Assembly (NCBI GenBank): GCA_964017145.1 | Contig: OZ024845.1 | Coordinates: forward strand, 806,001-870,000 | Direction: 5' to 3' | DNA: 64,000 nt | Source of the DNA: Agrocybe praecox | Taxonomy: Eukaryota > Basidiomycota > Agaricomycetes > Agaricales > Agrocybaceae | Shown: positions 1-55,734 of the stretch, piece after piece | Layout of the letters: each line of letters opens with the position of its first letter | Position numbering within the stretch: the first letter of the stretch is position 1 | Translations under genes and position numbers: made by a program | The notes under the pieces: generated by a model | What the model was told of the DNA's origin: nothing | The model's database searches: none | Seen by the model: only the letters and a program-made list of their open reading frames with translations

Positions 1-360
1 GGGTCCCAACTCGCGTTCTCTTTCGCGGCTCGTAGTGCAACTGCTAAGCGTCCCAGCCCCAGCCCTCTCTGCACCCCTATTCCGATCGCGACTCATCGCA
101 TACCCCTCCACCTCCGTGCCCACCTCCATACCCCCTACTTTCCCTCTCTTGCTTGCGTTCGTGCTCGACATGGTCCCCTCTCTTTCTCGCTCGCTCTCAG
201 CGCACCAGGTCCGCTTGCACCGCTCACAGCACTCGCGCTAACGCTCCTCCCATCCACACCTATACCTCTCAAAGGCGCCGACGCTCTCGAGGAATCATAA
301 CTCGACCTCTAGCGTAACCCGCTCTTCCTACTCGTCGGTGTGCCATGGATGTTGTGGGTG
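1..360. repeat. Dispersed repeat segment holding the Helitron empty site
   Basis: The first 280 bases are clearly related to 18270-18482 continued at 20704-20740: the same ordered words occur, including a cytosine-rich stretch and a shared run around the word CACACCTAT. The segment carries the uninterrupted version of the site where the Helitron at 18483-20703 has inserted. I see no protein gene; the open frames are low-complexity Ser/Pro/Leu products of pyrimidine-rich DNA. Confidence 0.6.
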
Positions 361-459
361 GTACTATGCCCATGCCCGTAACTGCTACGCGAAGACGACG
401 ACGACGCAGGCGAGCCTGATTGATCAGTCTCAGTCCCAGCCGCAGGCGTGGGTGCAGTC

Positions 460-804
460 TCAATGAGAAGGGATGTATTTATTCTTCCTAAAAAAGCCCA
501 ACCCCGACCCGAGTGATACCCTCTCCTTGAGCGTCTGCATCGTCATCGTCGAGCTTGAGCTCTGGCTTGAGTTAGTGCCACTTGTAGTGTGCCCATATCC
601 TGACGTAGGAGGATCAGTGATTGTCCTGCGGCGCCCGAGCCCATTTGCACCGAGGGGGGAAGATGCGATGGGTGTGAATGTTGATGTTGGTGCAGGTGTC
701 GGTGTAGGAAGGCAAAGAAGAAAGAAAGGCAAAGAAGAAGAAGAAGAAGATGGTGATGGTGATGGTGATGGAGAAGGAGAGAATATTGTCGAATTGGCAC
801 TCAT
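460..804 (-). pseudogene. Low-complexity Ser/Pro/Thr ORF remnant (copy A)
   Basis: A 114-codon minus-strand frame rich in SP and TPTPAPTS-like runs, with a counterpart in copy B at 7919-8188. Both share a C-terminal half with the same order of motifs, which suggests the last exon of a decayed gene. Upstream on the minus strand (to about 1190) further short stretches are conserved between copies but need several frame changes. I do not recognise the family; the proline/serine runs come partly from the hexanucleotide microsatellite, so this may never have been coding. Confidence 0.25.
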
Positions 805-2352
805 GAAGGCACCTCTGGGACCGTGTCCGTCTAGGTTCTGCTATATCCGTCAGATAAATCGTCGACAGGGAAAGGAGGAGCGTTAGGTGGTGCGAACTCA
901 ACCTTACCGTTAAGGCTACTTCGTCGAGTTCGAAGTTGGCCATTTCATGAACAGATGATGATGGAGCGGAGAGCATCGTCTATTTGGTTTCCTCAGCTGC
1001 AGGTATAAGATGGGCGCACTCCGATAATGGCCAACCAGAAACGATGGACTTCGATCGAAGAAAAAACCAGCACTCTGCTTCCAGCTCTCGGGAGTCGGAT
1101 CAGCCCCTTATTCCAAAATCTAAGCAGGTCGCAGGCGTCAATATTATCCCATATCTTATGAAGGTGGCTGAAGAAGTCGCCCGTTCCCACTAGTCTTTTC
1201 CAAATACGAACCTACCGCAACCTGGCTAACTGCAGGCTCGCGCATCTCGCTGCGAAAGTGAACGGAAAGCACCAAAATGGCCCGTCCCGAATCGATGCAA
1301 AACATCTCACTGAATCTTGAGCTTGAATTCTGATGATACGTTTACGAGTTTTATATATATAATATATGTAATATTCTTTTTCAGTATTGGAATCTACGCA
1401 GAAGCGATGTTCAGAATAACATGCAATCAGAATCACAAATGGACCGGTTGGCACAAGTGGATTTGGTTGCATGATTTCTCGCAAGATCCTAAGATTATAT
1501 AGGTAACCGGAGTTAGGGCACCAACAAATCCGTAACCTGCGACACCTGTTTGGGAACCAGAACTTGCATGTTCAGTACTTGAATAAGGTCGAGCAATTCG
1601 ACCCACCGGCCCCTGTAGTCTCTTGACGCCATTATGCAGATCCCTTTCTTTCAAATCATTGCTTGTGCCCTCGAAGACCCCTCAAGAACGCCGCTCGAAA
1701 TCTATGCGATAGTTCCAAGTTTAACGGTAGAGACAGCAACCACCTGAATAGATGGACGGTAGCTTGGTCCTTCGGCAGATGTCAACGACTGATGTAGTGT
1801 AAAAGAATGCAAGTCAACTCGAGAATTGAATCCCCCATATTTGCGTACCTTTCATGTTCACGTAGAAAATCCCCCATGAACGTTCCGTCGACCATCTCAG
1901 GTCTAAATATGCTGATCTCGGTCAATATGCTGCAGTACCACGCCCTTCCATTCAAATTGAGTTCAGTCCAGTCAGTCCGTAATACGGCTCAGACATAGAG
2001 GGAAATGTCAATGGGGCTTGTTTGCGCAGTGAATGAACCAGGATACTAGTCCAGGTAGATCCAATCTGACCCACTTGCTAACTTGTGTAATCTTCTATAG
2101 AGTATGGCGAGTAATGTAGTGCAGTCCCAGATATCATGTATCGACGTGTTATATCGTCCGTTGGTGGAAAGAAAACAGCGAACGCGCTTCGGGATAATGC
2201 TGCCGGGGTTCCGGGTTACTGTCACTGAGGTGTTACATGGATGTTACCACGGTGTTCATCGCCTTGATCGCCTCAATCAATCCCAAATCAATCCTTCAAC
2301 TTTCCTTACATCTTTCAACACTCGTTGTTCGATACAAAGTATCTTGTACAGA

Positions 2353-5300
2353 ATGTCTACACCAGCACAAATCTCTCTAATATCTCCTGAACACTACGAG
2401 AAAATTCGCAGCAAGTTTGGCCGCTTCCGTGTTCTCATTATAGGCCGGCGCAACTCGGGCAAAACAACTATCCTCCAGAGAGTCTGTGATACCACTAAGA
2501 AGTCAATTGTAATAAATGAGAAGGGGAAACAAGTGAGCATAGATCATACTTCTCCATGTTGGATTCCTTAGTGCTTTGCTTTAGATGATGCCTGAAGATC
2601 ATGTACTTAGTAGGCCCACAATCGAGGTCAGTTTAGTTGGTGCCTCCTGTAGACTTGGGCTCAATTAACATCTCAGCGAGGCATACATGACATCAACGAC
2701 GAGATGGTCTTCGAAAGCAATGAGAAATTTGTGTTTCATGACTCTTGCGGATTCGAGAGTGGTGGGGTTGATGAGCTAAAGATAGTACAGGACTTTATCA
2801 AGGGGCGTTCGCAAGAGCTGAGAATAAATGACCAATTGCATGCCATATGGTACTGTGTTCTGATTGCTTCGAGGAGATATTACTTTAATATTATCAACAC
2901 TAGGTATTGCATTGCAGTTGATAATTCAAGGCCTATAACACATGCAGAGAAGCAATTTTTCTCTGAATGTGGAACAGGAAAGGGTACACACTTATTGACA
3001 TCATCATTATAACATTGTTTCTAATGATAAATAGTTCCGGTTGTTGTCATTTTCACCAAGATGCATGTCAAAGATGCAGAGGAATGGCGAAAAGATAAGG
3101 ATAAACCAGCTGCACAGCGTCGGGCTTCTGCCATCAAGCAGGTGCAAGAAGGTGCATGGTTGGAATTGCAGAAATTAAAGTATCCACCATCAGCAGCAGT
3201 GTATTTGGGAGGTAATGTGTAATCAGTCAAATTGTATAATTATTTGAATATGGCTAACTGCTTTATTTGGTAGAAATTATACCAGAGAGCATAAATTGTG
3301 ATGTTCTCATACACAAAACCTTGAATTCTCTTGGTGATGAGAATCTACGTCACCTTCTGGTCTTAACACAGCAAGCAAATTTAGAGTTGTGCATGAAAAA
3401 TGCATTTTGCAGGTATTGATTTAAAGATAGAAAGCTCCATAATGAGTTACTAAAATAATATTTGAAAGATGTCTCATACCACTGCTATCAAGTAAGAGAA
3501 GTATAGATGTTCCATATATGATAGAACATTTTCCTTATATTAAGGTATATTCTTTATTCCATGTATTTATTACTAAAAAAATATATTAATTGAATATTTT
3601 TTAGGGATATTGGAAGGTAAGTTTCTGCTCTGTAATATATTTATGGCTCTTATCTAGTCACTGATTTATTTTTTTGCATCATTAATAGTTAGTACGTAGA
3701 ATTCATTCCTCTTTCTCTTTGTTCTTTGGCTTAATTCTGCTGTGTTTCTCTTTGTTTCATAGTGGGTGAGTAGAATTCATTCTCCTCTGCCATTTTTCTT
3801 TGGCTTAATTCTTCTGTGTTTCTCTTTGTTTCATAGGTTGTAGGCAGATTTCATTCTTCTCTTTCTTTGTTCTTTGGTCCAATATTTCTATGTTTCTCTT
3901 TGTTTCATAGGATGTGAGTAGATAATTTCACTCTTCTCTCTTTTTGTTCTTTGGCTTAATTCTTCTGGGTTTCTCCTTATTTTTTAGCATGTGAGTATAT
4001 TTCATTCTTCTCTCTCTTTGTTCTTTGGCTTAATTATTCTGTTTTTCTCTTTGTTTTATAGCTTGTGAGCAAATTTTATTCTTCTCTCCCTTTGTTCTTT
4101 GGCTTGATTCTTCTGTGTTTCTCTTTGTTTTATAGTTTGTAAGTAGAATTCATTCTTCTCTTTCTTTGTTTCTTGGCTTAATTCTTTTGTGTTTATCTTT
4201 GTTTCATAGCTTGTGAGCAGATTTTATTCTTCTTTCTGTTTGTTCTTTGGTTTAATTCTTTTGTGCTTCTCTTTGTTTCATAGTTTGTGAGTAGAATTCA
4301 TCCTTCTCTCTCTTTGTTTCTTTGCTTAATTCTTCTATGTTTCTCTTTATTTTATAGTTTGTGAGTAGAATTCATCCTTCTCTTTCTTTGTTTTTTGGCT
4401 TAATTCATCTGGTTTTTTGTTTGTTTCATAGGATGTGAGCAGAATTCATCCTTCTCTGCCATTATTTTTGGGCTTAATTCTTTTGTTTTTTCTTTGTTTC
4501 ATAGTTTGTGAGTACACTACATTCTTCTCTCGCTTTTTTCTTTGGCTCAATTCTTCTGTGTTTCTCTTTGTTTTATAGTTTGTGAGTAGAATTCATTTTC
4601 CTCTGCCATTTTTGTTTGGCTCAATTTTTATGGGTTTCTATTTGTTTCATAGGATGTAGCAAATTTCTTCCTTCCTTCTCTTTGTTCTTTGGCTCAATTC
4701 TTCTGTTTTTCTCTTTGTTCATAGGATGTGAGTAGATTTCTTTCTTTTCTTTCTTTGTTCTTTGGCTTAATTTCTCTGTGTTTATCTTTGTTTCATAGGG
4801 TGTGAGTAGAATTCATCCTTCTCTTCCTTTGTTCTTTGGCTTAATTCTCCTGTATTTCTCTTTGTTTTATAGTGGGTGAGTAGAATTCCTTCTCCTCTCT
4901 CTTTGTTCTTTGGCCTGATTCTCCTGTGTTTCTCTTTGTTTCATAGTGTGTGAGTAGATTTCATTCTTCTCTCTCTTTGTTTTTTTGGCATAATTCTTCT
5001 GTATTTGTCTTTGTTTTATAGGGTGTGAGTAGAATTCATTCTTCTCTTTTCCTGTTCTTTGGCATAATTTTTCTGTGTTTCTCTTTGTTTCATAGTTTGT
5101 GAGTAGAATTCATCCTTCTCTCTTTGTTATTTGAGTTAATTCTTCTGTCTCTCTTTATTTCATAGGATGTGAGCAGATTTTATTTTTCTCTCTCCTTGCT
5201 CTTTGGCTTAATTTTTCTGTGTTTTTCTTTGCTTCATAGGATGTGAGCAGATTATGTTCCTCTCTCTCTCTTTGTTCTTTGCCTTATTTCTCCTGTGTTT

Positions 5301-6223
5301 TCCTTTTTTTTCATAGGTGGTACATAGAACCTATTCCTGGCTGTATTTATTTTAGCTCATTTAACTTGTCAATTTTTTCCAATAGTCTGTGAGTAAAATT
5401 GTTTTTTCATAATATGTAAATATGATTCATACAAATACTTACAACCTTTTAGCCAAAAATGGTTTCCACAATAACTCCTGTTCTTGAACAAATGGTAATA
5501 TTTTTTTAATATTTTTAATATTTACATCATTTATGTTACTTTTCTCAGCTTAATGGATTACTTGAATCCAAAATGCAAAAGGAAATCTGCTCTGCTATAT
5601 GTTTGCTTTTATTTTATTTTATTTTAAGCATATATTTAATATATCTCTTTAGGTTTGATAATATGCTCAGAACATGTTTTTTATTTGTTCAATACATACT
5701 CCAAGGTCCCACTGGAAATTTACTTTTTAGAGACTTTGAAGCTCTATCACACATTATCCCATTTAAAAGTTTCAAACACCATGTCAGTTGCATTGGCATC
5801 ATACAATAGTAAGTTTCAAAAATTGTGGAAATATTTTTCTACATAAATCAATTCAAACAGAAATGGATGAGCTAAAATTCAAGGGGAAAAAAGCTGTTTA
5901 TAAGCTGGTGCACTTGTTTGACCAAAATTGTATATTTTCTTCCTTATTATTGAATTGACTTGTAAATCTAAAACTATACTAGCTGTAAAAGTCCAGCCAA
6001 CAACTGCTCCAAGTCAGTTGTTGATTAACACTCTTTGGACTATAATATTACAAAATCGACTTTGTATGTTCTTTCTATACTCATATATAAGACCAATTAC
6101 TTACATAGTACTATGTCTCACACAGCTGTGGACAATCTTGAAGAAGAAATCAACACAGCCAAGGTTATTTATGCTGCTGAACAGCCAAAGTCAACCAACT
6201 TCCAAAGACCACACAAATACTGA
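2353..6223 (+). CDS. P-loop GTPase-like protein with a 24-unit one-codon-exon array (gene A)
   Basis: Exons read: 2353-2532, 2585-2626, 2677-2849, 2904-2983, 3035-3211, 3274-3412, 3469-3544, 3605-3616, then 24 three-base exons (see the array at 3617-5452), then 5453-5494, 5549-5600, 5653-5808, 5861-5929, 5983-6063, 6126-6223. The coding sum is 1449 nt, 482 residues plus stop. The N-terminal domain (about residues 20-270) is of the P-loop NTPase family greatly expanded in agaricomycetes: Walker A GRRNSGKT at 31-38, DSCG (G3-like) at 96-99, and a degenerate G4 (TKMH at 166-169, where relatives usually have TKFD). The array gives residues 294-317. The C-terminal part (318-482) has no family I recognise, but its frame is kept in gene B. 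Start: the ATG before STPAQ fits the family start. The frame is open upstream to 2104, but the two copies differ there by indels. AATAAA lies at 6280-6285. GTP binding is inferred, and a role in recognition or signalling is a guess. Confidence 0.72.
3617..5452 (+). repeat. Array A: 74-bp tandem units, each an intron plus a 3-nt exon
   Basis: Period is about 74 bp (69-77). Each unit opens with a GTRNGT-type donor (mostly GTGAGT or GTGAGC), has a TTAAT/TCAAT branch-like word about 30 nt before its end, a pyrimidine tract, and ends in ATAG; exactly three bases follow before the next donor. Microexons (start, codon): 3689 TTA, 3763 TGG, 3837 GTT, 3911 GAT, 3988 CAT, 4062 CTT, 4136 TTT, 4210 CTT, 4284 TTT, 4358 TTT, 4432 GAT, 4505 TTT, 4579 TTT, 4653 GAT, 4725 GAT, 4799 GGT, 4873 TGG, 4947 TGT, 5022 GGT, 5096 TTT, 5166 GAT, 5240 GAT, 5317 GTG, 5386 TCT. 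All follow a phase-0 exon (3605-3616, residues GYWK) and precede a phase-0 exon at 5453. Donors are weaker at 3840 (GTAGGC), 4656 (GTAGCA) and 5320 (GTACAT). The alternative reading is one 1.8-kb intron carrying a minisatellite. Confidence 0.8.
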
Positions 6224-7747
6224 TGAAGACAACAAAAGAAAATGAAAAAGTAACAACAAATGAAGTCTTCAACAAGTCCAATAAATTTATGTGATCTAGA
6301 ATCTCTTCCATCTCAATTTTCTGAATAATCCACCACCCAGAAAAACATCCAAAAAAGGACACTGGCTATATATGGCTCTTGACTTTCTATATAACATTTG
6401 AATGTAAATAAAGACCAAGCTTTTCTATATACAAATCAAAACCCACAACCAAACCAAAGAAAGTATTATTTTACATGTAGGTTATACCAATGATAACATG
6501 TTCTCCTTTCTATCTGTGGTGTGCACACTGGACATATTATCTCACCAAAATTCCCCAAGTCTCCCGTTTGTACTTATAGTATTTTCGTCATGTGTATGTA
6601 TAGAAGGATGAATAAGCTGGAAAGAAGGTAAGGATGAATAGTTGGAAAGAACGAGGGAGAATGGTAAGGATGAAAGTAAGGTGGGTACAACGGAGGGAAT
6701 ATAAGAAAGGAAGCGGGAACAGTGGATGGAGATTTTTAAAACAGAAACCAAAAGGCAACCCACAAAACCACGCAAAAGGAAAAGAGGAACAGGTGGTAGC
6801 AGCAATACAGCCAGGCTTGGTGTTAAGAGAGAGACAAAGGGATAATGCTTAGGAGTAGATATAGAAAGTATGCATGCATGTGTAGATAGAGTGTGGTGTA
6901 TAGATGGACGAGAGGGGGTGAAGTGAACCACGAACACGAACGCAAAAGAAGCGTGGAACAACGAACTAGGAGAGCAAGAAACGATGAATGTACAAAACAA
7001 CAACAAACAAAAGAACATACAGAAAAACCACTCAAGGCATATCATAGGAGAACTGGGATATGTAAGCTGGCTAGGTAAGGTTATACGCTCATACGATAGG
7101 ATATGGTAGGATGGGTAGTGTAGTGTTTGTATTTCAACGATCGGAACTAAAGAGAAGGAAGGCTGAGTGAAGATAGAAGAGAGGGAATGAGAAATTGCAT
7201 TACTTCCATAATGTCACGAGTTCAGTTCGAGAACCAGATATCGAAATAATATAGAAACAAAGAAGAAACAAGGCATAACGATATCGATAGAAAAGAAAGA
7301 TGAAATATGCATATAATATACCACCGATAACGCCCAACGAAAGGCGGAGAAATTTTCAGGAACAGGAGTGAAATTGATCAGGTAGGCAGTGAAGTAGAAT
7401 AGGCGTAAAAGAAAAGATAGGCGAGATAAAGGATGCACCGTTGAAACCCACAAGAAAGAGGTCGATGTCGGGCTGATAAACAAGAGCTGAAGAGTATATG
7501 TCGGTCGGTCAAGAAAAAGTAACAACAATAAACGATCGGGTTAAGTGGGTCGATAGACTGGCCAGTTGGATCATAGCAAAGGAAGAGGTCAAACACAACT
7601 TCCAGATTGCCGATTAGTAGTGGGCTTAAATGTTCCAAGTGAGACAAGACAGCAGCAGCAGCGGTGGGAAGGCAAACAAACATAGGAGGAAGGAGAAAGC
7701 TAGCAAGCGAGAAGATGTACTGTGACCAACAACGTAGATGACAGGGT
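6224..7747. other. 3' flank of gene A, duplicated, no gene seen
   Basis: Matches 15281-16955 of copy B. It starts with the probable 3' UTR (AATAAA at 6280) and then a purine-rich plus strand. Long minus-strand frames (6542-7045, 7214-7528) are leucine, serine and phenylalanine rich and are not frame-conserved along their length in copy B, so I treat them as compositional. Confidence 0.5.
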
Positions 7748-7918
7748 ATGCCCGTAACTGCTACACGAAGACCGGCGAGCTCGATTGATCAGTCCTAGTC
7801 CCACCCGTAGGTGTGGGTGCAGTCTCAATGAAAGGAGATGTATTTATTCTTCGCCCCAACCTCGAGCCGAGCGATACCCTCTCCTTGAGCGTCGTGGTCG
7901 TCGTCTTCATCGTCGTCG

Positions 7919-8188
7919 TCAAGCTTGAGCTCCGGCTCGCGTCAGCCCCACCCCACTTGTAGAGCTAGTAGGACCATCCGTAGGGTGCCCATATTCTGAC
8001 GTAGGAAGATCAGCGATCGTCGCGTGGCGCCAGAGCACATTTACACCGAGGGGGAAAGATGCGATGGGTGTGGATGCTGATGTTGGTGCGGGTGTCGGTG
8101 TAGGAATGTTAAGAAGAGGCGAAAGTGAAGAAGATGGTGATGGTGATGGTGATGGAGAAAGAATCAACGTTATCGAATTGGCACCCAT
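7919..8188 (-). pseudogene. Low-complexity Ser/Pro/Thr ORF remnant (copy B)
   Basis: An 89-codon counterpart of the copy A frame at 460-804, with the same SPSPSP and TPTPAPTS character and a GGTGAT microsatellite under it. The two C-termini differ. Function unknown; probably the end of a decayed duplicated gene. Confidence 0.25.
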
Positions 8189-8892
8189 GAAGGCACCTCT
8201 GGGACCGCGTCCGTCTAGGTTGAGCTATATCTGTCAGATAAACCGTCGGCTGGGATAGGAGAAGCGTTAGGCGGTGCGAACTGAACCCCACCGTTATGGC
8301 AACTTCGTCGAGTTCGAAGTTGGCCATTTCATGAACAAGAGCAGAGAGCATCGTCCGTTCATCTGTTGTTTTTTTGATTTCCTCAGCGGCAGGTACAAGA
8401 TGGCCAGGCTCACTCCGATAATAGCCAACCAGAAATGATAGACTTCGATCGCAGAAAAAACCTGCGTTCTGCTTTCAGCTCTCGGAGTCGGATCAGCCCC
8501 TTACTCCAAAATCTAAGCAGTCCGCAGGCGTCAATATTATCCCATATCCTATGGAGGTGGCTGAAGAAGTCACCAGTTCCGAGCAGTCTTTTCCACATAC
8601 GAACCTACCGTGACCTGTCTAATTGCAGGCTCGCGCATCTCGCTGCGAAAGTAAACGAAAAGCACCAACATGGCCCGTCGCGAATCGATGCAAAACATCT
8701 CACTGAATCTTGAGCTTGAATTCTGATGATACATTTACGAGTTTATGTATATATAATTTACATGTAATATTACTTTTCAGTATTGGAATCTACGCAGAAG
8801 CAATGTTCAGAATAAAAAATGGACTGGTTGACACAAATGAATTTGGTTGCATGATTTTTGGCAAGACCGTAAGATTATATAGGTAACCGAAG

Positions 8893-10570
8893 GGCGGGCG
8901 ACGTTCGACTCTCATTCCCAACTAAGTTTCGGCTCCGAAGAAGCTAAGATAAATTGGACATTGACAAACGAGAACCACAGGTAGCTGAGGCAGTAACGAT
9001 TTCGAGAGCAAACTCGTAATGGAATTGCATCTAAAGTTGGACTTCCTGTATTGACTGTTGAGGGACAATTCACGTAGTGGCCTGTGGGGGCTGCAAAACT
9101 AATATTGGAAATTATAGATTGGTGGATATTACATTCGTCGGTGCGGTGCAAAACATTTCCTTCATAGTACTACGTAGTGTAGGTATTACATTTTCAAAGT
9201 CTGACAAAGAACTAGATCAGCGAAGGGCGGCATCCCAAAGGATATATCCACGTACGAATTAACCTTTAAGCAGATGCAGCCAACCGATCATCTTTTGTTC
9301 ACACACCCCAACTTTTTTTTTCCAACGCCTAACGGCTCTCAGAACATCTCGGCTCTGTAATCGCTCAATGGTACTGCAGGATATGGAAGCATCTCAATTA
9401 AGCAGCTATTGATCTGCAGAATATACACCCATGTCCGAGATGATTATGAGGTATCTCGCACAAATATCGAGAGAATTGCGAGAGAATGAGGTCGTCTAGA
9501 AGGAAACAATATTTTAGTTTGAATATACACCAAAACTAGGAGAGGTTCTCTTACATACATGAACAAGTACTCACATGCACGCAGAGAACGGGCATCAATT
9601 CCTTGAATCTGCCTGGCGTAATGTCAAGGGAAGAAAAAAATGGTAATAATTCTCCATTGTCATATTTGCTTTCTTCTCATCCACTACCAGCAACCCTTGC
9701 CCACTTCCGCGCTGCCGTACCACGAATAGGCAGACTTTATCCTAGATTCGTGTCAGTACACGCCTGCAGCTCGATACCTGACAGTACATACGATGGACTC
9801 AGATATGATACATGACCGCTTGCCTTAACACGGCATCGATAGAAATTGTGATGGTCTATCATGTTCGCGCGACTTGGTTTAACATCGCCGTTGACGTCTG
9901 GTGAGAAGATGCGCGAGTTACATAGTTACACTGCTCGAGATAGAGATATTTGCTTACCTGTCTCACGCAGCCTCGGTTTACGGTCATAAGGCCTTTGTAC
10001 TCGATCTGAAGGGCTCACAAGCCATCGCCACCTCGGAAGGTGTCTCGCCCATTGTTTTTACGGCGCCTCGCAGCTTGTGCTGGTCGATATAAATAAGGCT
10101 TGCTTTTGAACGTCGACCTTTGACTCTGCGCGCAGTGATGGGCCCCGGAGACGATAGAAGGCAGGACTGAACGAAGGTGATAATTCTTGTGTACAAATAA
10201 ATTATTTCATGGTAATGGGTACGTACTGAAAGATGTAGGGCACTTACCACATAGTTTCAGCACCCATAACCAAACATACAGCCATCGGCCCGACTTCTCG
10301 TGTGCTTGCAGCTTATACTTTGGCAGTCTTCAACCAAGGTAAGTGTTAAGTAACGTCTGTGTAAGAGTGAGCGACTCACAGAATCAGTAAATCTTGACAC
10401 CCAAACACAACTGTTCCATTCGGCGGGAAAGACGTCGTGGAGTGATAGAGTCTTCCGATGGTAGTAGCAAGAATGTCGACCAAAGATAACCTTCCTGCTA
10501 GGCTTCAAATGAGAGGAGGGCATTCTGGATTCGTCGCGTTGCTGATACCCGCTTGACGAGGCGAGTTGTA
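8893..10570. other. Copy-B-specific 1.65-kb segment
   Basis: Copies A and B are collinear up to GATTATATAGGTAACCG and again from the word GGGGCACCAAC, but only B has the sequence between them. No intact gene is visible. Part of the minus strand (10400-10746) encodes short stretches (VVNGAQTGAAGYGS-like, then SITPRR) that reappear on the plus strand at 20930-21250, so the region holds fragments of a shared decayed gene. Either a deletion in A or an insertion in B would explain it. Confidence 0.5.
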
Positions 10571-11385
10571 TAGTTAGGGGCACCAACAGATCCGTAACCC
10601 GCGGCACCTGTTTGGGCACCGTTGACGACGAGAATTTGCATGTTCGGTACTTGAATGAGGTCCAGCAATTCGCTCCACCGGCCCCCGTAGTCTCTTGACG
10701 TCATTATGCAGATCCCTTTCTTCCAAGTCATTGCTTGTACCCTCAAAGGCTCCTCAAGAACGGCCCTCGAAATCTACACGATGGTTCCAAGTTTGTCGGT
10801 AGAGACAGCAAACACCGGAATGGATGGACGGTAGCTTGGTACTTCGGTGGATGTCAGCGACTAATGTAGTGTAAAAGAATGCAAGTCAACTCGAGAATTG
10901 AATACCCTATATTTGCGTACCTTTCATGTTCACGTAGAAAATCCCCCATAAACGTTCCTTCTACCTTCTCACGTCTAAACATGCGGATCTCGGTCAATAT
11001 GCTGCAGTGCCACGCTCATCCATGCAAATTGATTTCAGTCCAGTCAGTCTGTAATACGGCCCAGACATAGAGGGAGATGTCAATGCGGCTTGTTTGGATG
11101 AGCCAACCAGGATATTTCGAGTCGTCCAAGTAGATCCGATCTAACCCGCTTGCTAACTGTTGGAATCTTCTATAGGGTATGGCGAGTAATATAGTGCAGT
11201 CCCAGATATTATATATCGACGTGTTATATGGTCCGTTGGTGGAAAGATGCTGCCAGGGTTCCGAGAGGCAAAGGTCACTGTCACTGAGGTGTGACTTGGA
11301 TGTTACTCTGTTTATCGCCTTGATCAGTCCTTCAATCGTTACGTCTTTCAACACGCATTGCTCGATACAAAGTATCTTGTACAGA

Positions 11386-14300
11386 ATGTCTACACCAGCA
11401 CAAAGCTCTGTAATATCTCCTGAACGCTACGAGGAAATTCGCCTCAAGTTTCGCCGCTTCCGTGTTCTCATTATAGGCCGACGCAACTCGGGCAAAACAA
11501 CTGTCCTCCAGAGAGTCTGTGACACCACTGAGAAGCCAATTATAATAAATAAGAAGGGGAATCAAGTGAGCATATATCAGACTTCTCCATGTTAGATTCC
11601 TCAGTGCCTTGCTTTAGATGACGCCCGAGGATCATGTACTTAGGCCCACAATTGAGGTCAGTTTAGTTGCCAGTGACTGCCGTAGACTTGGGCTCAATTA
11701 ACATCTCAGCGAGGCATACATGACATCAACGACGAGATGGTCTTCAAAAGCAACGAGAAATTTGTGTTTCATGACTCTCGCGGATTCGAGAGTGGTGGGG
11801 TTGATGAGCTAAAAATAGTACAGGATTTTATCGAGCGGCGTTCGCAAGAGCGGCGACTGGATGACCAATTGCATGCCATATGGTACCGCGTTCCGATTGC
11901 TTCGAAGATATATTACCTTAATATTATCAACACTAGGTATTGCATTGCGGTCGATAATTCAAGGCCTATAACACATGCAGAGAAGCAATTTTTCTCTGAA
12001 TGTGGAACAGGAAAGGGTGCACACCTATTGACATAATCATTATAACATCATTTCTAATGATAAATAGTTCCGGTTGTTGTCATTTTCACCAAGATGCATG
12101 TCAAAGATGCAGAGGAATGGCGAAAAGATAAGGATAAACCAGCTGCACAGCGTCGGGCTTCTGCCATCAAGCAGGTGCAAGAAGGTGCATGGTTGGAATT
12201 GCAGAAATTAAAGTATCCACCATCAGCAGCAGTGTATTTGGGAGGTAATGTGTAATCAGTCAAATTGTATAATTATTTGAATCTGATGGACTGCTTTATT
12301 TGGTAGAAATTAAGCCAGAGAACATCAAGTGTGATATTCTTATACACAAAACATTGAATTCTCTTGGTAATGAGAATCTACGTCACCTTCTGGTCTTAAC
12401 ACAGCAAGCAAATTTAGAGCTGTGCATGAAAAAGGCATTTGACAGGTATTGATTTAAAAGATATAAAATCTCTCGAGTGAGTTACTGAAATAATATTTGA
12501 AAGGCATCTTATACCATTGTTATTAAGTGAGGGGAGCATAGATTGTGGAGAAATAATAGAATGTTTTCCTTATACTTGGGTATGTCCTTCATTCAATGTT
12601 TTTGCTACAAAATAATATATCAATGGAATATTTTTAGAAATTTTGGAGAGTAAGTCTGTGCTCTATAATCTTGTTTAGTCACTGATTTTGCATCCACAAT
12701 GAATAGGATGTGTGTAGAATTCATCCTTCTCTGACTTGGTGCTTTGCCTTAATTCTTCTGTGTTTTGCTTTGTTTCAAAGTATGTGCGTAGAATTCATCC
12801 TACTCTGCCTTTGTGCTTTGCCTTAATTCTTCTGTGTTTTGCTTTGTTTCATAGGATGTGCGTAGAATTCATTCTTCTCTGCCTTTGTTCTCTGCCTTAA
12901 TTCTTCTGTGTTTGGCTTTGTTTCATAGCTTGTGTGTAGAATTTATCCTTCTCTGCCTTTGTGCTTTGCCTTAATTCTTCTGTGTTTTGCTTTGTGTCAT
13001 AGCTTGTGCGTAGAATTCATTCTTCTCTGCCTTTGTGCTTTGCCTTAATTCTTCTGTGTTTTGCTTTGTTTCATAGTATGTGCGTAGAATTCATCCTTCT
13101 CTGCCTTTGTGCTTTGTCTTAATTCTTCTGTGTTTTACTTTGTTTCATAGGATGTGCGTAGAATTCATTCTTCTCTGCCTTTGTGCTTTGCCTTAATTCT
13201 TCTGTGTTTGGCTTTGTTTCATAGCTTGTGCGTAGAATTCATCCTTCTCTGCCTTTGTGCTTTGCCTTAATTCTTCTGTGTTTGGCATTGTTTCATAGTA
13301 TGTGCGTAGAATTCATCCTTCTCTGCCTTTGTGCTTTGCCTTAATTCTTCTGTTCTTTGCTTTGTTTCATAGGATGTGCGTAGAATTCATCCTTCTCTGC
13401 CTTTGTTCTCTGCTTTAATTCTTCTGTGTTTGGCTTTGTTTCATAGCCTGTGTGTAGAATTCATCCTTCTCTGCCTTTGTGCTTTGCCTTAATTCTTCTG
13501 TGTTTGGCTTTGTTTCATAGGATGTGCGTAGAATTCATCCTTCTCTGCCTTTGTTCTCTGCCTTAATTCTTCTGTGTTTGGCTTTGTTTCATAGCTTGTG
13601 CGTAGAATTCATTCTTTTCTGCCTTTGTACTCTGCCTTAATTCTTCTGTGTTTTGCTTTGTTTCCTAGGCTGTGTGTAAAATTCATTCTTCTCTGCCTTT
13701 GTTCTCTGCCTTAATTCTTCTGTGTTTTGCTTTGTTTCATAGTATGTGCGTAGAATTCATCCTTCTCTGCCTTTGTTCTCTGCCTTAATTCTTCTGTGTT
13801 TGGCTTTGTTTCATAGCTTGTGTGTAGAATTCATCCTTCTCTGCCTTTGTGCTTTGCCTTAATTCTTCTGTGTTTTGCTTTGTTTCCTAGGCTGTGTGTA
13901 GAATTCGTTCTTCTCTGCCTTTGTTCTCTGCCTTAATTCTTCTGTGTTTGGCTTTGTTTCATAGCTTGTGCGTAGAATTCATTCTTTTCTGCCTTTGTGC
14001 TTTGCCTTAATTCTTCTGTGTTTGGCTTTGTTTCATAGTATGTGCATAGAATTCATCCTTCTCTGCCTTTGTGCTTTGCCTTAATTCTTCTGTGTTTGGC
14101 TTTGTTTCATAGCATGTGCGTAGAATTCATTCTTCTCTGCCTTTGTTCTCTGCCTTAATTCTTCTGTGTTTGGCTTTGTTTCATAGGTCGTGCGTAGAAT
14201 TCATTCTTCTCTGCCTTTGTTCTCTGCCTTAATTCTTCTGTGTTTTGCTTTGTTTCCTAGGCTGTGTGTAGAATTCATTCTTCTCTGCCTTTGTTCTCTG

Positions 14301-15280
14301 CCTTAATTCTTCTGTGTTTGGCTTTGTTTCATAGCTTGTGCGTAGAATTCGTTCTTCTCTGTCTTTGTTCTTTGTCTTAACTCTTTTTTCTTTTGCCTTG
14401 TTCTATAGGATGTCTGTAAAACATATTCTTGTTTGTCTTTTTCTTTTTGTTTATTTCTCTTGTGTTTTTATTTTTCTCAGGCTGTGAGCAATCTTTTTTT
14501 GTGATACTTAAATGTTATTAATTCAAATTTTTCAATCTTTTAGCAACAAATAATTACCCCAATAACCTCAATCATTGAAAAAATGGTAATTATTTATTAT
14601 TATTATTTATATATATCTTTAATTTTACTTTTTCTCAGCTTAATGGATTACCTAAATCCCAAATTCAAAACACATTGTGCTCTATTATATGTTTGCTCTT
14701 ATCCTACTTTATTTTCAACATCTATCTCATATATTTCTTTAGCTTTGATAATATGCTCAGAGCATGTTTTTTATTTGTTCCACACACACTCCCATGTCTC
14801 GTTAGAAACTTACTTTTCAGAGACCTTCAAGCTTTATCAAGCTTTATCTCATTCACAAGTTTCAAATGCTGTCCCAGTTGCATTGGCATCATACAATAGT
14901 GAGCCTTAAAAATTGTAAATGTCATTTTTCTACATAAATCAATTTAAACAGAACTGGAAGAGTTCAAATTCAAGGGGAAAAAAACAGTTCATAAGCTGGT
15001 GCACTTGTTTGATCGGAATTGTATGTTTTTTCACCTTGTTATCTAGATTAACTTGTATATCTAAAACCTTACTAGCTAAATATGTCCAGCCACCCACTGC
15101 CACTCAAAGTCATGATGCTCTTTGGACTATAATATTAAAAAATCGTCTTTGTATGTTCTTTTTGTACTTGTCTATATGACTAACTACTTACATAGTAATA
15201 TATTCCACACAGCTGTAGACAATATTGAAGAGGAAATCAAAGCAGCCAAAGCTATTCATGCTGCTGACCAATCAGAGTAG
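11386..15280 (+). CDS. P-loop GTPase-like protein with a 25-unit one-codon-exon array (gene B)
   Basis: Paralogue of the gene at 2353-6223 with the same exon plan: 11386-11565, 11618-11656, 11710-11882, 11937-12016, 12068-12244, 12307-12445, 12504-12579, 12638-12649, 25 three-base exons, 14544-14585, 14639-14690, 14743-14898, 14952-15020, 15076-15150, 15213-15280. Coding sum 1413 nt, 470 residues plus stop. Walker A GRRNSGKT is at 31-38; the G3-like motif is DSRG. Exon 2 lacks one codon relative to A, and the last two exons are shorter by whole codons, so indels between the copies keep frame. Exon 12504-12579 is strongly diverged in its second half although its length is the same (25 codons). 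The 4-codon exon before the array reads KFWR, where A has GYWK. AATAAA lies at 15342-15347. Family and function as for gene A: nucleotide binding is supported by motifs, the rest is unknown. Confidence 0.74.
12650..14543 (+). repeat. Array B: 25 near-identical 74-bp intron units with 3-nt exons
   Basis: The period is exactly 74 bp for 23 consecutive steps (12707 to 14409), then 72 and 63. Units share donor GTGCGT or GTGTGT, the word GAATTCAT, a CCTTAATTCTTCTGTG branch region and TTTCATAG. Microexons (start, codon): 12707 GAT, 12781 TAT, 12855 GAT, 12929 CTT, 13003 CTT, 13077 TAT, 13151 GAT, 13225 CTT, 13299 TAT, 13373 GAT, 13447 CCT, 13521 GAT, 13595 CTT, 13669 GCT, 13743 TAT, 13817 CTT, 13891 GCT, 13965 CTT, 14039 TAT, 14113 CAT, 14187 GTC, 14261 GCT, 14335 CTT, 14409 GAT, 14481 GCT. 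The three bases between introns are the most variable positions of the unit, while intron bodies differ mainly by two alternating variants. GCT at 13669, 13891 and 14261 always follows CCTAG, showing whole-unit duplication. Confidence 0.85.
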
Positions 15281-17203: not shown

Positions 17204-17275
17204 GACCTGATAGCTCAGTGGTTAGAGCGTCTGGTATGTGTCCAGTGGGCCTGGGTTCAATCCCCAGTCTGGTCA
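17204..17275 (+). tRNA. tRNA-like sequence, possibly a pseudo-tRNA or SINE head
   Basis: Cloverleaf parts are visible: acceptor arms GACCTGA and TCTGGTC (one mismatch), D arm GCTC...GAGC with an AGTGGTTA loop (A box), T arm CTGGG-TTCAATC-CCCAG (B box), and a T run shortly after the end (17278-17283) that could stop Pol III. The anticodon stem TCTGG/CCAGT has a mismatch at its base, and the 7-base loop TATGTGT lacks the near-universal U33, so no trustworthy anticodon can be named. It may be a decayed tRNA or the head of a SINE. Confidence 0.45.
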
Positions 17276-17855
17276 CTTCTTTTAATAAGAGCTCTGGGTG
17301 AGTCTTGCAACATTGAGCTCGCATGATAACTGGCTGCCTCTTGTTGAAGTTCCTGTTCCCTTGAAAAGTTGATCAAAGGAAGATGGGCCTTGGCTATGGA
17401 TGGACGGGTACAGTGATTGACGGTGGGGGTGAGCGCTTGTTGTTGAGTATTGAGTATAACAATGCCCGAGCCGGTGAAAATTCAAGCATACGTAGTGGAA
17501 CCCAGTGGCGAACTAGTCGATATGCGGCGGCCGACATAGTTTGTTGGGAATCATCTAGGATGTATAAGCCTGACGACTGTGAATAGCGATGAGGTTTTGA
17601 CGGTTAAGAACAAAAATTATCTACGGCTAAAATCACGATGCGAACCGAAAGGCCACATGACCGCGTTCAACCTTGAACATCGTGCAATGTGCAGAGAGCT
17701 CTTGAGTCTTGACTATCTTAACCCATCTGCTACTTTCTGCTCCCAAGCAAAAATGGACGAAGACTCACCGCATTCTAGTCTCATCAATTTAGCTCTATGT
17801 TTTCACGCGAGTTGAAGCAGTCTTCTATATGACATCCTCCAATATCACTTTATGC

Positions 17856-53322: not shown

Positions 53323-55734
53323 CTACCTTTTCTTGCCCCTGCCCCTGCCTGTCACACGTTGTGTGGCTCCTTGGATTGCATGTTTGTCAGCGGGTCTTTT
53401 AGATGAGGCAGATCTTGCACGTGTTGTCATTGTGCCGCTTTGCTCTTGAGTTGTGGCAGAAGTCATTGAGCGTGTACGACGAACGGTGGAAGTTGGGAAG
53501 GTGAGCGGGTGTCCATGAGATGGTGAATCCAAGTTTTCGAGGCCCGCTTCACCGGGTGGATTGACAGACGCTGTTGCAGCGGCTGAAATGCCAATCCCTT
53601 GCCTTTCCATGTTGCCCAAATTTGGCAGTGGATCAGACGCATCATCCCCATATATTGTCTGATGGTATAAGCTTGTTGCTGTCTTTGCCGCTCCCCGTTT
53701 GCGGGGCTGTGGTCTTTTCCTCTGAGCAGGTCCTGCGGGCTCTTGACCTCCGCATATCGAATTCAATACTGTCGGTGTATCAAGTGGACAGAGGGTTAAG
53801 CCAACAGCTGCGGGCATTCCTTCATTTGAAGCGGGGGTTGTGCTAATGGACGTGGGAGTTTGCTTATTTGGTGCAGGTGTTATGGTAATTGGTGCGGGTG
53901 TTTGGTCATTTGGTGCGGATGTTGTGCTGCTCGATGCGGGTATTTGTTCATTTGGTGCGGATGTTATGCTGATTGATGTGGGTATTGGTTCATTTGGTGC
54001 GGATGTTATGCTGATTGATGCAGGTATTGGTTCATTTGGTGCGGATGTTATGCTATTGTTGCGGGTATTGGTTCATTTGGTGCGGACGTTATGCTGATCG
54101 ATGCGGGTGTTTGCTGATTTGGAAGGACTGGAGCTGCAGCTGCAGTCGCCCTCAAGTCGATTACTGTTTGATATGGTGGAGGTTTTTTCTTTTTGCTTGC
54201 AGCAGCTTGGGGGGTTGCCTGGGTGGCGGGGTTTGATGTCCCATGTTCTGTAGGATAACTAGCATTAATGACTCGGCTCTCCTTTGCTCTTCCATCCAAA
54301 ACCCTTCTGAATCTGAACACATTTTCTAGTGAATCATAAGTTTGTTGACGGTTGTAGACATGATTTAAAAATGTCAGAATTTCCTCTTTTTGAAGGAGAC
54401 GTGGGTGGTTGAACCGAAACCCATGCGGGACATACTCCTGATCGACAAACTCCCGATCGTTTTCATACATGACCGACCACGGGACATGATACCGTTTATT
54501 CATCCCTGTCGCTATGTCTACCAAACAGTCAGAAAAAAGAAAAACAGTTAGGGGGAAAGGAATACAATAATGTTGCCCCAAATAAAGCCGCATAAGCATT
54601 TCCAGTTGATCCTTGGTCATATTTTGGTCCTTAAATTTTGGCAACAATTTTGGGTATTGATTGTCGCTAATTTCAAACATATCGGCGGGTACTGCTTTGG
54701 TCCCGCTAGGCAGAACTGGTGGTAGGATTGTCCCGCTCGTCATCAACAGGTTGCTTTCCATCCCTTGGGGTACTACTGTTGCGTCCCTTAGTGCCAAATT
54801 ACTCACTTGGTCCCGGAGCTTCTTGACATATGACGCTAATACTTGCTTGAAATCTTTGACCTGTTGCGGGTATTGGGCACTTAGTGAAAATGATGGCCCC
54901 AGATGAAGTAAATCCCCAATACGATCATGTCTTAGAGGGAAAATATTTAGTTTTCAGCACATTCGAAGAGCGTCCATTGAACACTTACATATCAACTTCC
55001 AATTCTCCGAGAGGGTTGCGGAATATAACAAAGGTTATAGAGAGGATGTCCATCTCAAGAAAGTTGCAGGAACTTCCCTCTTCAAGTCGTGCCTTCATAT
55101 GGCGATTTCAATTTCTGTGCCATGGGATTAGTTCCCGCTATGACAGGAATTTGCCAAACTGACTTTGTTTTTGCCTCTGTTGATAAACCCTCCTGCTCCC
55201 GCTGTTGAACCTCCCGCTCGATATGGCCCCGCTCCTCGGTGGAAAGGGACTTCCAAACAGTTTGCACCGCTGTGGCATACTTGGGAAGCCATCTAGAAGA
55301 CCCGCCTGAGGCAATGGACTCTTCAATTAAACGCGCAATCTCTTCTTCCACTCTGAGCCTGTGGATTTCCCAGACAATGCTCGATTTCTTGACAACAATT
55401 CGAAGACCTGGACCGTATATAGATTTTGGTAGGCGCCAATTGTTGCGAACGAAGAAAGCAAGTTTCTGGAAAAAAAGGATGGACGTCAATGGCAACTTTA
55501 AGAGTGACAGCGCAAACCATTGCTTTGGCAGCCGCATTCTCTATCACTGGGTCGCCCGTCTTCTGCCGCCAATACTCGCACAAAGATGTCCAGATGATAT
55601 TGGAAACATATTCCTTTCGCTCTGGTGGACTCTGACACTTCAGGTAACCGGATTTAAACTGCCTCAACAAGGCCCGTTCTTTTGAATTGTAGTTTTTTGA
55701 ACGGCGGTCTGTATGCCTGGCCATGAGAACAAAC
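53323..55734 (-). pseudogene. KDZ-element accessory protein with a frameshift in its repeat tail
   Basis: Minus-strand gene convergent with the one ending at 53133. Start at 55734 (MARHTDRRSKNY). An intron at about 55467-55497 (GTTGCC...TTCCAG) joins ...AVTLK to KLAFFVRNNW; the frame then continues through a basic, helical region to about 55140. A further intron or two lead to the exon starting near 54806 (VSNLALRDATVV), with FRFNHPRLLQKEEILTFLN and an Ala/Pro/Lys linker. It ends in repeats coding for TSAPNEPIPA-like units and a basic tail (RGRGKKR, stop at 53323). One repeat unit near 54050 is one base short relative to its neighbours, so the frame stops there and the tail is out of frame. 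I recognise the N-terminal type from agaricomycete transposon-linked hypotheticals but know no function. Confidence 0.5.
53836..54112 (-). repeat. Coding tandem repeat in the accessory gene
   Basis: About seven units of roughly 36-39 bases around the word CATTTGGTGCGGATGTTATGCTGATTG-like core (minus-strand peptide TSAPNEPIPASI). The unit at 54037-54075 lacks one base. Confidence 0.75.

Follow-up and report, generated by a model that had tools for sequence, protein, structure and literature searches.

Tandem array of candidate single-codon exons in a P-loop GTPase gene family of Agrocybe praecox

A stretch of 64,000 nucleotides (nt) of the Agrocybe praecox genome was analyzed (assembly GCA_964017145.1, contig OZ024845.1, positions 806,001 to 870,000, forward strand), and is called the window below. 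It carries two paralogous genes, A and B, each interrupted by an array of near-identical short introns that follow one another with exactly three bases between them. These triplets are probably exons of a single codon each. The features of gene A, in window coordinates, are the following.

2353-2532, 2585-2626, 2677-2849, 2904-2983, 3035-3211 and 3274-3412, + strand: exons 1-6, P-loop GTPase domain (GT/AG boundaries, one open frame; Pfam)
3469-3544, + strand: exon 7, HFPYI motif (open frame; match to the WFPH[IL] of relatives read by eye)
3605-3616, + strand: exon 8, a 12-nt micro-exon encoding GYWK (open frame)
3617-5452, + strand: array A, 25 introns and 24 candidate single-codon exons encoding LWVDHLFLFFDFFDDGWCGFDDVS (Tandem Repeats Finder, TRF; unit walk)
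3689, 3763, 3837, 3911, 3988, 4062, 4136, 4210, 4284, 4358, 4432 and 4505, + strand: starts of codons 1-12 of array A
4579, 4653, 4725, 4799, 4873, 4947, 5022, 5096, 5166, 5240, 5317 and 5386, + strand: starts of codons 13-24 of array A
5453-5494, 5549-5600, 5653-5808, 5861-5929 and 6126-6223 (with the stop), + strand: five exons of the C-terminal part (open frame)

The original prediction was of about 25 tandem units of 64-74 nt, each with a splice donor and an acceptor. A walk through array A unit by unit agrees with it: there are 25 introns, all 25 with GT..AG and 64-74 nt long, and 24 spacers of 3 nt each. Introns 1-13 measure 72, 71, 71, 71, 74, 71, 71, 71, 71, 71, 71, 70 and 71 nt, and introns 14-25 measure 71, 69, 71, 71, 71, 72, 71, 67, 71, 74, 66 and 64 nt. 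TRF finds 21.9 copies with a period of 74 nt (score 1830), and a chance origin of array A is excluded. Both flanks are in phase 0 (the 12-nt exon 3605-3616 and the exon 5453-5494), as had been proposed, and a single open frame of 455 codons runs from the exons that end at 3616 through the 24 triplets into the five exons that begin at 5453. The frame also stays open when the array is left out. One of the introns after the array has GTTTGC as its donor. Left unspliced, the array contains 28-32 stops per forward frame, and a continuous coding minisatellite is ruled out by these stops in all three forward frames. The array lies after the HFPYI motif and the 12-nt exon and before the C-terminal part. 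The gene had also been taken to encode a P-loop GTPase-like protein, and protein A indeed scores above the cut-off for Pfam MMR_HSR1 (PF01926, 25.5 bits against 21.9) and has the P-loop GRRNSGKT in its translation.

Gene B, the paralogue, is laid out as follows.

11386-11565, 11618-11656, 11710-11882, 11937-12016, 12068-12244, 12307-12445, 12504-12579 and 12638-12649, + strand: exons 1-8
12650-14543, + strand: array B, 26 introns and 25 candidate single-codon exons encoding DYDLLYDLYDPDLAYLALYHVALDA (TRF; unit walk)
14544-14585, 14639-14690, 14743-14898, 14952-15020 and 15213-15280 (with the stop), + strand: five post-array exons (open frame)

The introns of array B are 57-71 nt long, 23 of the 26 being exactly 71 nt, and TRF finds 23.1 copies at 12703-14413. 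With its 25 triplets gene B is a single open frame of 445 amino acids. The DNA upstream of the two genes is also alike, as window positions 1-2350 resemble about 7700-11390 by eye. It thus seems that genes A and B arose through a segmental duplication in which upstream sequence was included.

In the whole genome (59.2 Mb), a query with one exon of gene A found 29 places and the repeat searches added one, which gives 30 family loci; the exon 5653-5808 has matches at 27 places. Arrays, detected with TRF and by wrap-around alignment to the repeat unit, are present at 27 of the 30 loci, spread over six contigs. The three loci without an array are two truncated copies and one copy with a 200-N gap at the array. 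The arrays occupy the same position of the gene throughout and fall into three classes, one with units of 74 nt and two with units of 72 nt (one of them named 72a). A short exon homologous to exon 8 of gene A is readable upstream of the array in most other array genes. A unit was counted only if it was at least 72% identical to the unit consensus; array A thus contributes 22 of its 24 codons, the divergent first or last units of several arrays lie outside the counts, and the locus C8:2982530 is covered up to the end of the stretch analyzed. In this way 525 units were counted in the 27 arrays, from 3 to 36 per locus, with introns of 60 to 89 nt; later statistics use 523 or 522 of them (cut-off rounding; a gapped triplet). 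GT..AG was scored in 520 of the 525, and the remaining five read as alignment slips. Two units scored as having a 2-base triplet (at C9:2219313 and in gene B) have three bases in the letters. The units carry a donor and an acceptor, and in most of them a motif like a branch site, of loose consensus YTNAY, lies 27-29 nt upstream of the acceptor. Retention of a single intron would bring in a stop or a frameshift in 522 of 525 units. Together with the stops in all forward frames, this shows that the array cannot be read through unspliced.

Some copies outside the window have features of their own. At the array ends of C6:789883 and C6:1248800, the GT three bases past the last counted acceptor is lost and GTAATA abuts the acceptor. 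In both (C6:789883-793905 and C6:1248800-1252300) this is how a zero-length exon would look, and the frame would be kept if it were used. The C6:789883 copy is probably split by an insertion: in C6:791383-800001 its C-terminal exon lies at 799852, about 7 kb past the array, and shortly past the first post-array exons the sequence starts to look unrelated. Two copies, C6:2652961-2656137 and C11:853755-856931, carry an in-frame stop in exon 5; their arrays are short, with 3 and 9 counted units, and they are possibly pseudogenes with shrinking arrays. Units of 72 nt (for example in C8:2790125-2794500) have a conserved internal TGCAG that resembles a second acceptor, the use of which would give a longer exon with a stop.

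The spacing of three bases, never two or four, had been claimed for array A, where it holds for 24 of 24 triplets, and it extends to the genome. We counted matches to a pattern of two successive junctions of the form TAG-spacer-GTGNGT, with the same pattern read backwards as control. A spacer of 3 gave 351 matches genome-wide (4 backwards), 304 of them within the locus stretches examined. Spacers of 4 and of 2 gave no match in the genome (2 and 5 backwards, respectively). The junction pattern of the 72a class has 94 genome matches. At array loci there are 93, all without a stop; the one elsewhere (C7:819006) has the triplet TGA and is at the level of the control, which has 7 matches. In 523 aligned units there were 413 insertion or deletion (indel) events in intron columns and one in triplet columns; an even spread would put about 17.7 there. 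The single event is an alignment slip, in one of the two units scored with a 2-base triplet. Tandem copying could by itself account for exact spacing, but invariant triplets beside introns of 60-89 nt point to more than copying. The splice sites would survive a longer or shorter triplet, so its fixed length is most simply explained by a constraint on the frame.

The triplets also vary as codons do. No stop was found among 522 triplets, where within-array base frequencies predict 8.95; class-wide base frequencies predict 3.99, 6.19 and 0.12. In the 26 arrays with at least 6 counted units, diversity (pi) is 0.03-0.24 in introns, 0.49-0.81 at codon positions 1 and 2 and 0.00-0.72 at position 3. 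Within single arrays there are 102 pairs of units whose introns are identical letter by letter. The triplets differ in 65 of them, at positions 1, 2 and 3 in 57, 51 and 3 cases, and none of the differences is synonymous. With each unit used once there are 30 disjoint pairs; on average 18.5 of them differ (14.8, 14.1 and 3.0 at the three positions), again none synonymously. The sparing of position 3 suggests selection on the amino acid and not a mutator aimed at the triplet, which would hit position 3 too. The last triplet of the row was readable to the array end in 26 of the 27 arrays. It is AGT in 12 and ACT in one of the 13 arrays of the 72-nt classes. In the 13 arrays of the 74-nt class it is TCT or TCA in 6, CCT in 3, GCT in 2 and GAT in 2. 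Serine is encoded by AGT as well as by TCN, and more than one base change separates the two; that one residue is kept by two sets of codons argues for translation.

The exons around the arrays behave differently from the rows of codons. Flanking exons 3-6 have a median ratio of nonsynonymous to synonymous change (dN/dS) of 0.27, with a range of 0.11-0.57 (116 within-class pairs; C6:1248800-1252300 was excluded, as it lacks these exons), and are under purifying selection. The paralogues C6:2462434 and C6:2573282 are 97.7% identical in their exons, and their rows are VYDDDDLLDRDRLLDRDRYDYLNS and RLDLGYGGYHYDGYHDYHNS, with 24 and 20 counted codons. The similarity of these rows is at the level of shuffled ones (z -0.4). 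The last codon of the C6:2573282 row is AGT (S) from the letters, an alignment slip having scored it as AGA (R). Introns of the two genes differ by 0.063 between genes, which does not exceed the level within each gene (0.051 and 0.074), and in pairs across the two genes with identical introns the triplets differ in 38 of 43. The codons that border introns upstream of the arrays (for example in window 3469-3616) also vary between genes by eye, namely the last one before the 12-nt exon and the first and last of the 12-nt exon. It is as if variability reached slightly beyond the array, into the ends of the upstream exons.

Linkage between variable sites in the arrays is weak and declines within some 10-20 nt, and is similar inside introns and across the triplet. 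At 10-19 nt the mean z is 0.26 across the triplet and 0.26 within introns; under 10 nt the values between triplet and flank are 0.70 and 0.95. Blocks of codons with their introns are also copied, as in C6:2462434, where the row L-L-D-R-D-R occurs twice in tandem. Linkage and block copies fit unequal exchange or short conversion tracts at the DNA level, with breakpoints anywhere in the introns. Homogenization of introns alone through RNA is not favored, as linkage is equal across the triplet and within introns, and extends from the triplets to their flanks.

Among 5.8 billion proteins searched for relatives, the best ones are GTPases, with 44-49% identity in the top rows (46-49% in the very best) over little more than the GTPase domain. 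Those with names come from Agaricomycetes ('G domain-containing protein', 'GTP-binding protein'). Some relatives from Agaricomycetes have a similar C-terminal part, with a variable peptide between it and the GTPase domain. Several of the GTPases found are on short contigs of 1.1-2.3 kb: P0040 (543 residues on 1,848 nt), P0101 (449 on 1,699), P0024 (316 on 1,866) and P0121 (325 on 2,295). The contigs of P0040 and P0101, at least, are probably complementary DNAs (cDNAs), because genes A and B span about 3.9 kb with their introns. The peptide at the position of the array is YYYDDVRDLDVLDLLRDLDVLLLL in P0040 and GFRRDDLRFVSSIRFLSDDRFSLSRDLRFDF in P0121, the surrounding parts being otherwise alike. 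In several relatives this segment is rich in D, L, R, Y and V, and K, E, Q, M and W are scarce in it, as expected for a run of NNT codons. In composition, the segment stands apart from the remainder of its protein in 3 of 6 cases at P < 0.05 (0.0084, 0.0049 and 0.038). The Suillus gene models P0037, P0043, P0123, P0124 and P0126-P0132 were set aside as evidence for array exons; as predictions, whose sequence there is short or odd, they are uninformative. An AlphaFold2 model of P0101 has a mean predicted local distance difference test score (pLDDT) of 85.5. Values under 50 occur at residues 1-4, which are the N-terminus, and at 301-307 and 315-337, which fall in the variable segment. The GTPase fold resembles many G domains. 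Its longest matches are immunity-related GTPases (IRG), a group with a G domain and an IRG helical domain; with a template modeling (TM) score of about 0.35 and a root-mean-square deviation near 9 or more, these matches are weak and non-specific.

These results suggest that array A is probably a run of 24 genuine single-codon exons, whose 25 short introns would likely be removed serially; the codons left would form a hypervariable segment connecting the GTPase domain and the C-terminal part. That each triplet is a codon, as originally predicted, is supported at the DNA level by the open frames of both window genes, the absence of stops in 522 triplets, the indel-free triplets and variation in codon phase. 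Beyond that prediction, the array is found family-wide, its codons are hypervariable against conserved introns and flanking exons, and the rows differ between close paralogues. On the best reading, introns homogenized by recombination would flank codons under diversifying selection, and the segment would change by whole codons. By sequence, the units are tandem copies of an intron plus one codon. Splicing would proceed from 5' to 3' by intron definition, with the upstream exon gaining 3 nt at each step. Unequal crossing-over or gene conversion with breakpoints in introns could then add, remove or reorder whole codons and leave the frame untouched, because near-identical introns flank every codon, and diversifying selection may alter the residues that they encode. 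The resulting loop would vary in length and sequence between paralogues and would most plausibly be a recognition surface. A purpose in recognition is the least supported step, which we infer from hypervariability alone.

Several observations weigh against this interpretation. Diversity at position 3 is above the intron mean in most arrays, chiefly in the 72a class, and among pairs of units with at least one intron difference 42 of 3449 differ synonymously. The units are mutually related, so that P values are only indicative. The low change at position 3 could partly reflect splicing at the last base of the exon; the usual base there, T in two of the classes, is not the best partner for pairing with U1. 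The last codon of the row is conserved and not hypervariable, and the columns of the splice sites next to the triplet are also poor in indels, so that the depletion is not confined to the triplet. The two family members with a stop in exon 5, which are likely pseudogenes, are likewise without a stop among their array triplets. Rows are above the shuffled level in 4 of the 30 closest gene pairs (z 8.7, 3.3, 3.0 and 2.6). The pair with z 8.7 is a 99.8% identical duplicate with 14 compared codons in common; likeness of rows in near-identical duplicates and its loss in other close paralogues suggest that rows are inherited and then diverge. The composition of the variable segment gave P of 0.09, 0.20 and 0.60 in the other 3 of the 6 proteins. 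That the short contigs of the relatives are cDNAs, and that the genes of these relatives carry arrays, we infer. Finally, a natural cDNA in the form of a retrocopy was not found: at the known loci a 157-amino-acid query over exons 3-6 matched each exon separately, with no intronless copy seen in the genome.

Of the other explanations, the one that survives best, although it is unlikely, keeps the single-codon exons and lets splicing be stochastic. Any donor would then be joined to any later acceptor, so that one gene would make many proteins and each skip would lose whole codons in frame. In the window genes every array exon has a length of 3 nt and is in phase 0, which would keep every combination in frame, and donors and acceptors are nearly identical within an array, with little to distinguish them. 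Exon skipping also has a precedent in the micro-exon genes of Schistosoma (PMC4015677). With random skipping, however, each codon would count for less, and the selection at the codon level that is indicated here would be weaker. Short introns of fungi are usually spliced efficiently by intron definition, which also counts against it.

Serial removal of the introns is also favored over an inert minisatellite within one intron of about 1.8 kb (3617-5452), whose triplets would never enter messenger RNA. In its favor, splicing from the first donor to the last acceptor would use valid sites and preserve the frame. This explanation is nevertheless improbable, as the inner splice sites would have no reason to persist and GT..AG is scored in 520 of 525 units. 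It also leaves unexplained the stop-free and indel-free triplets, the nonsynonymous change at positions 1 and 2 and the final serine encoded by two codon sets.

Mobile introns, similar to introner-like elements, could have been inserted between the codons of an older continuous exon, in which case introns would be alike and codons unlike from the outset. Near-identical introns do enclose unlike codons, and such elements are reported from fungi (PMC4457414). The arrays make this origin very improbable. The piece between counted units is 3 nt and never 6, 9 or 12, with no partly filled stretch. Among the matches listed the intron unit is confined to array loci, the number of codons tracks that of introns between paralogues, and blocks of codons and introns are visibly copied together. 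An assembly artefact, from a collapsed or mis-joined repeat, is hardly credible either: arrays are hard to assemble, and C5:3036000-3041161 and C6:1248800-1252300 have a 200-N gap at or beside the array, but at 27 loci on six contigs miscalls would neither create differing codons where the flanking introns are identical nor leave frames and splice sites intact.

Two other features were seen in the window. A transfer RNA gene, tRNA-Thr (anticodon TGT), lies at 17204-17276, downstream of gene B. A tandem repeat at 53809-54122 has a period of 42 nt, 7.5 copies and 82% matches, and is possibly coding, its period being a multiple of three.

If the single-codon exons are genuine, this would be the most extreme exon-intron structure known to us, with dozens of one-codon exons in a row in a single gene, and arrays at 27 loci of the genome. 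It would test how far exon definition is dispensable. Introns would gain an evolutionary use as frame-safe recombination spacers, with selection acting on single codons, and the family would become a candidate for recognizing non-self or partners among mushroom-forming fungi. Exons of 3 nt are seldom called by gene finders, and related genomes may therefore contain mis-annotated genes of this kind. The chances seem to us evenly balanced that the family represents an undescribed architecture, a hypervariable region with one exon for each residue, with codon cassettes edited frame-safely by recombination and at least 27 GTPase loci making recognition loops. It would then be a functional fungal counterpart of complementarity-determining region 3 (CDR3) of antibodies or of the turnover of PRDM9. 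The original prediction knew of no gene built from serial single-codon exons, and a literature search, with most subscription papers and all preprints outside its scope, likewise found none described by title or abstract opening.

Known systems share some of these properties. By its Pfam score and its P-loop, protein A belongs to the P-loop GTPases, and those of Agaricomycetes are the nearest protein relatives; their record names mention no array. Multiplication of introns by duplication or insertion is known, including introner-like elements in fungi (PMC4974935, PMC4457414). Here the duplicated piece would instead be an intron with a codon, in up to 36 counted copies at one site, with codons that then diversify. 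Dispersal of near-identical introns in unrelated genes, typical of introner-like elements, was not seen: the 74-nt unit is at array loci among the matches listed, and the 72-nt-class junction is so in 93 of 94 matches. For very short exons, one of 3 bp is said to exist in Drosophila homothorax. An exon of 1 nt is spliced in Arabidopsis APC11 and in Fusarium CYP621A (PMC4674806, PMC12940212). These cases of 1-3 nt indicate that spliceosomes, including a fungal one, can splice such exons, but in the reports consulted they are single cases, without a serial array or hypervariability. The micro-exon genes (MEGs) of Schistosoma mansoni have many tiny exons, mostly multiples of three, that can be added or skipped in frame to give variable products (PMC10526429, PMC4015677). 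Their exons are mostly of 15 bp, with 3-81 bp given in the abstract and a minimum of 6 bp in the text, and their introns range from 100 to nearly 5000 bp (PMC10526429). In contrast to the MEGs as described there, the array exons have 3 nt, and the introns are about 70 nt long, near-identical and repeated in tandem within a GTPase gene. Much of the coding sequence of a MEG also consists of serial exons of 6-81 bp, whereas in gene A the exons of 3 nt account for 24 of 455 codons. The repeat unit of PRDM9 has 84 bp and is wholly coding, whereas in the array unit 3 of about 74 bases would be coding and the repeat backbone is intron; the repeat is not itself translated as a unit, since the unspliced array carries stops. 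The tandem coding units of the PRDM9 zinc-finger array differ mostly nonsynonymously at a few codons per unit (PMC3890296), and the arrays of Agrocybe praecox share this pattern of a homogenized backbone with few, hypervariable and nonsynonymously changing codons in each unit.

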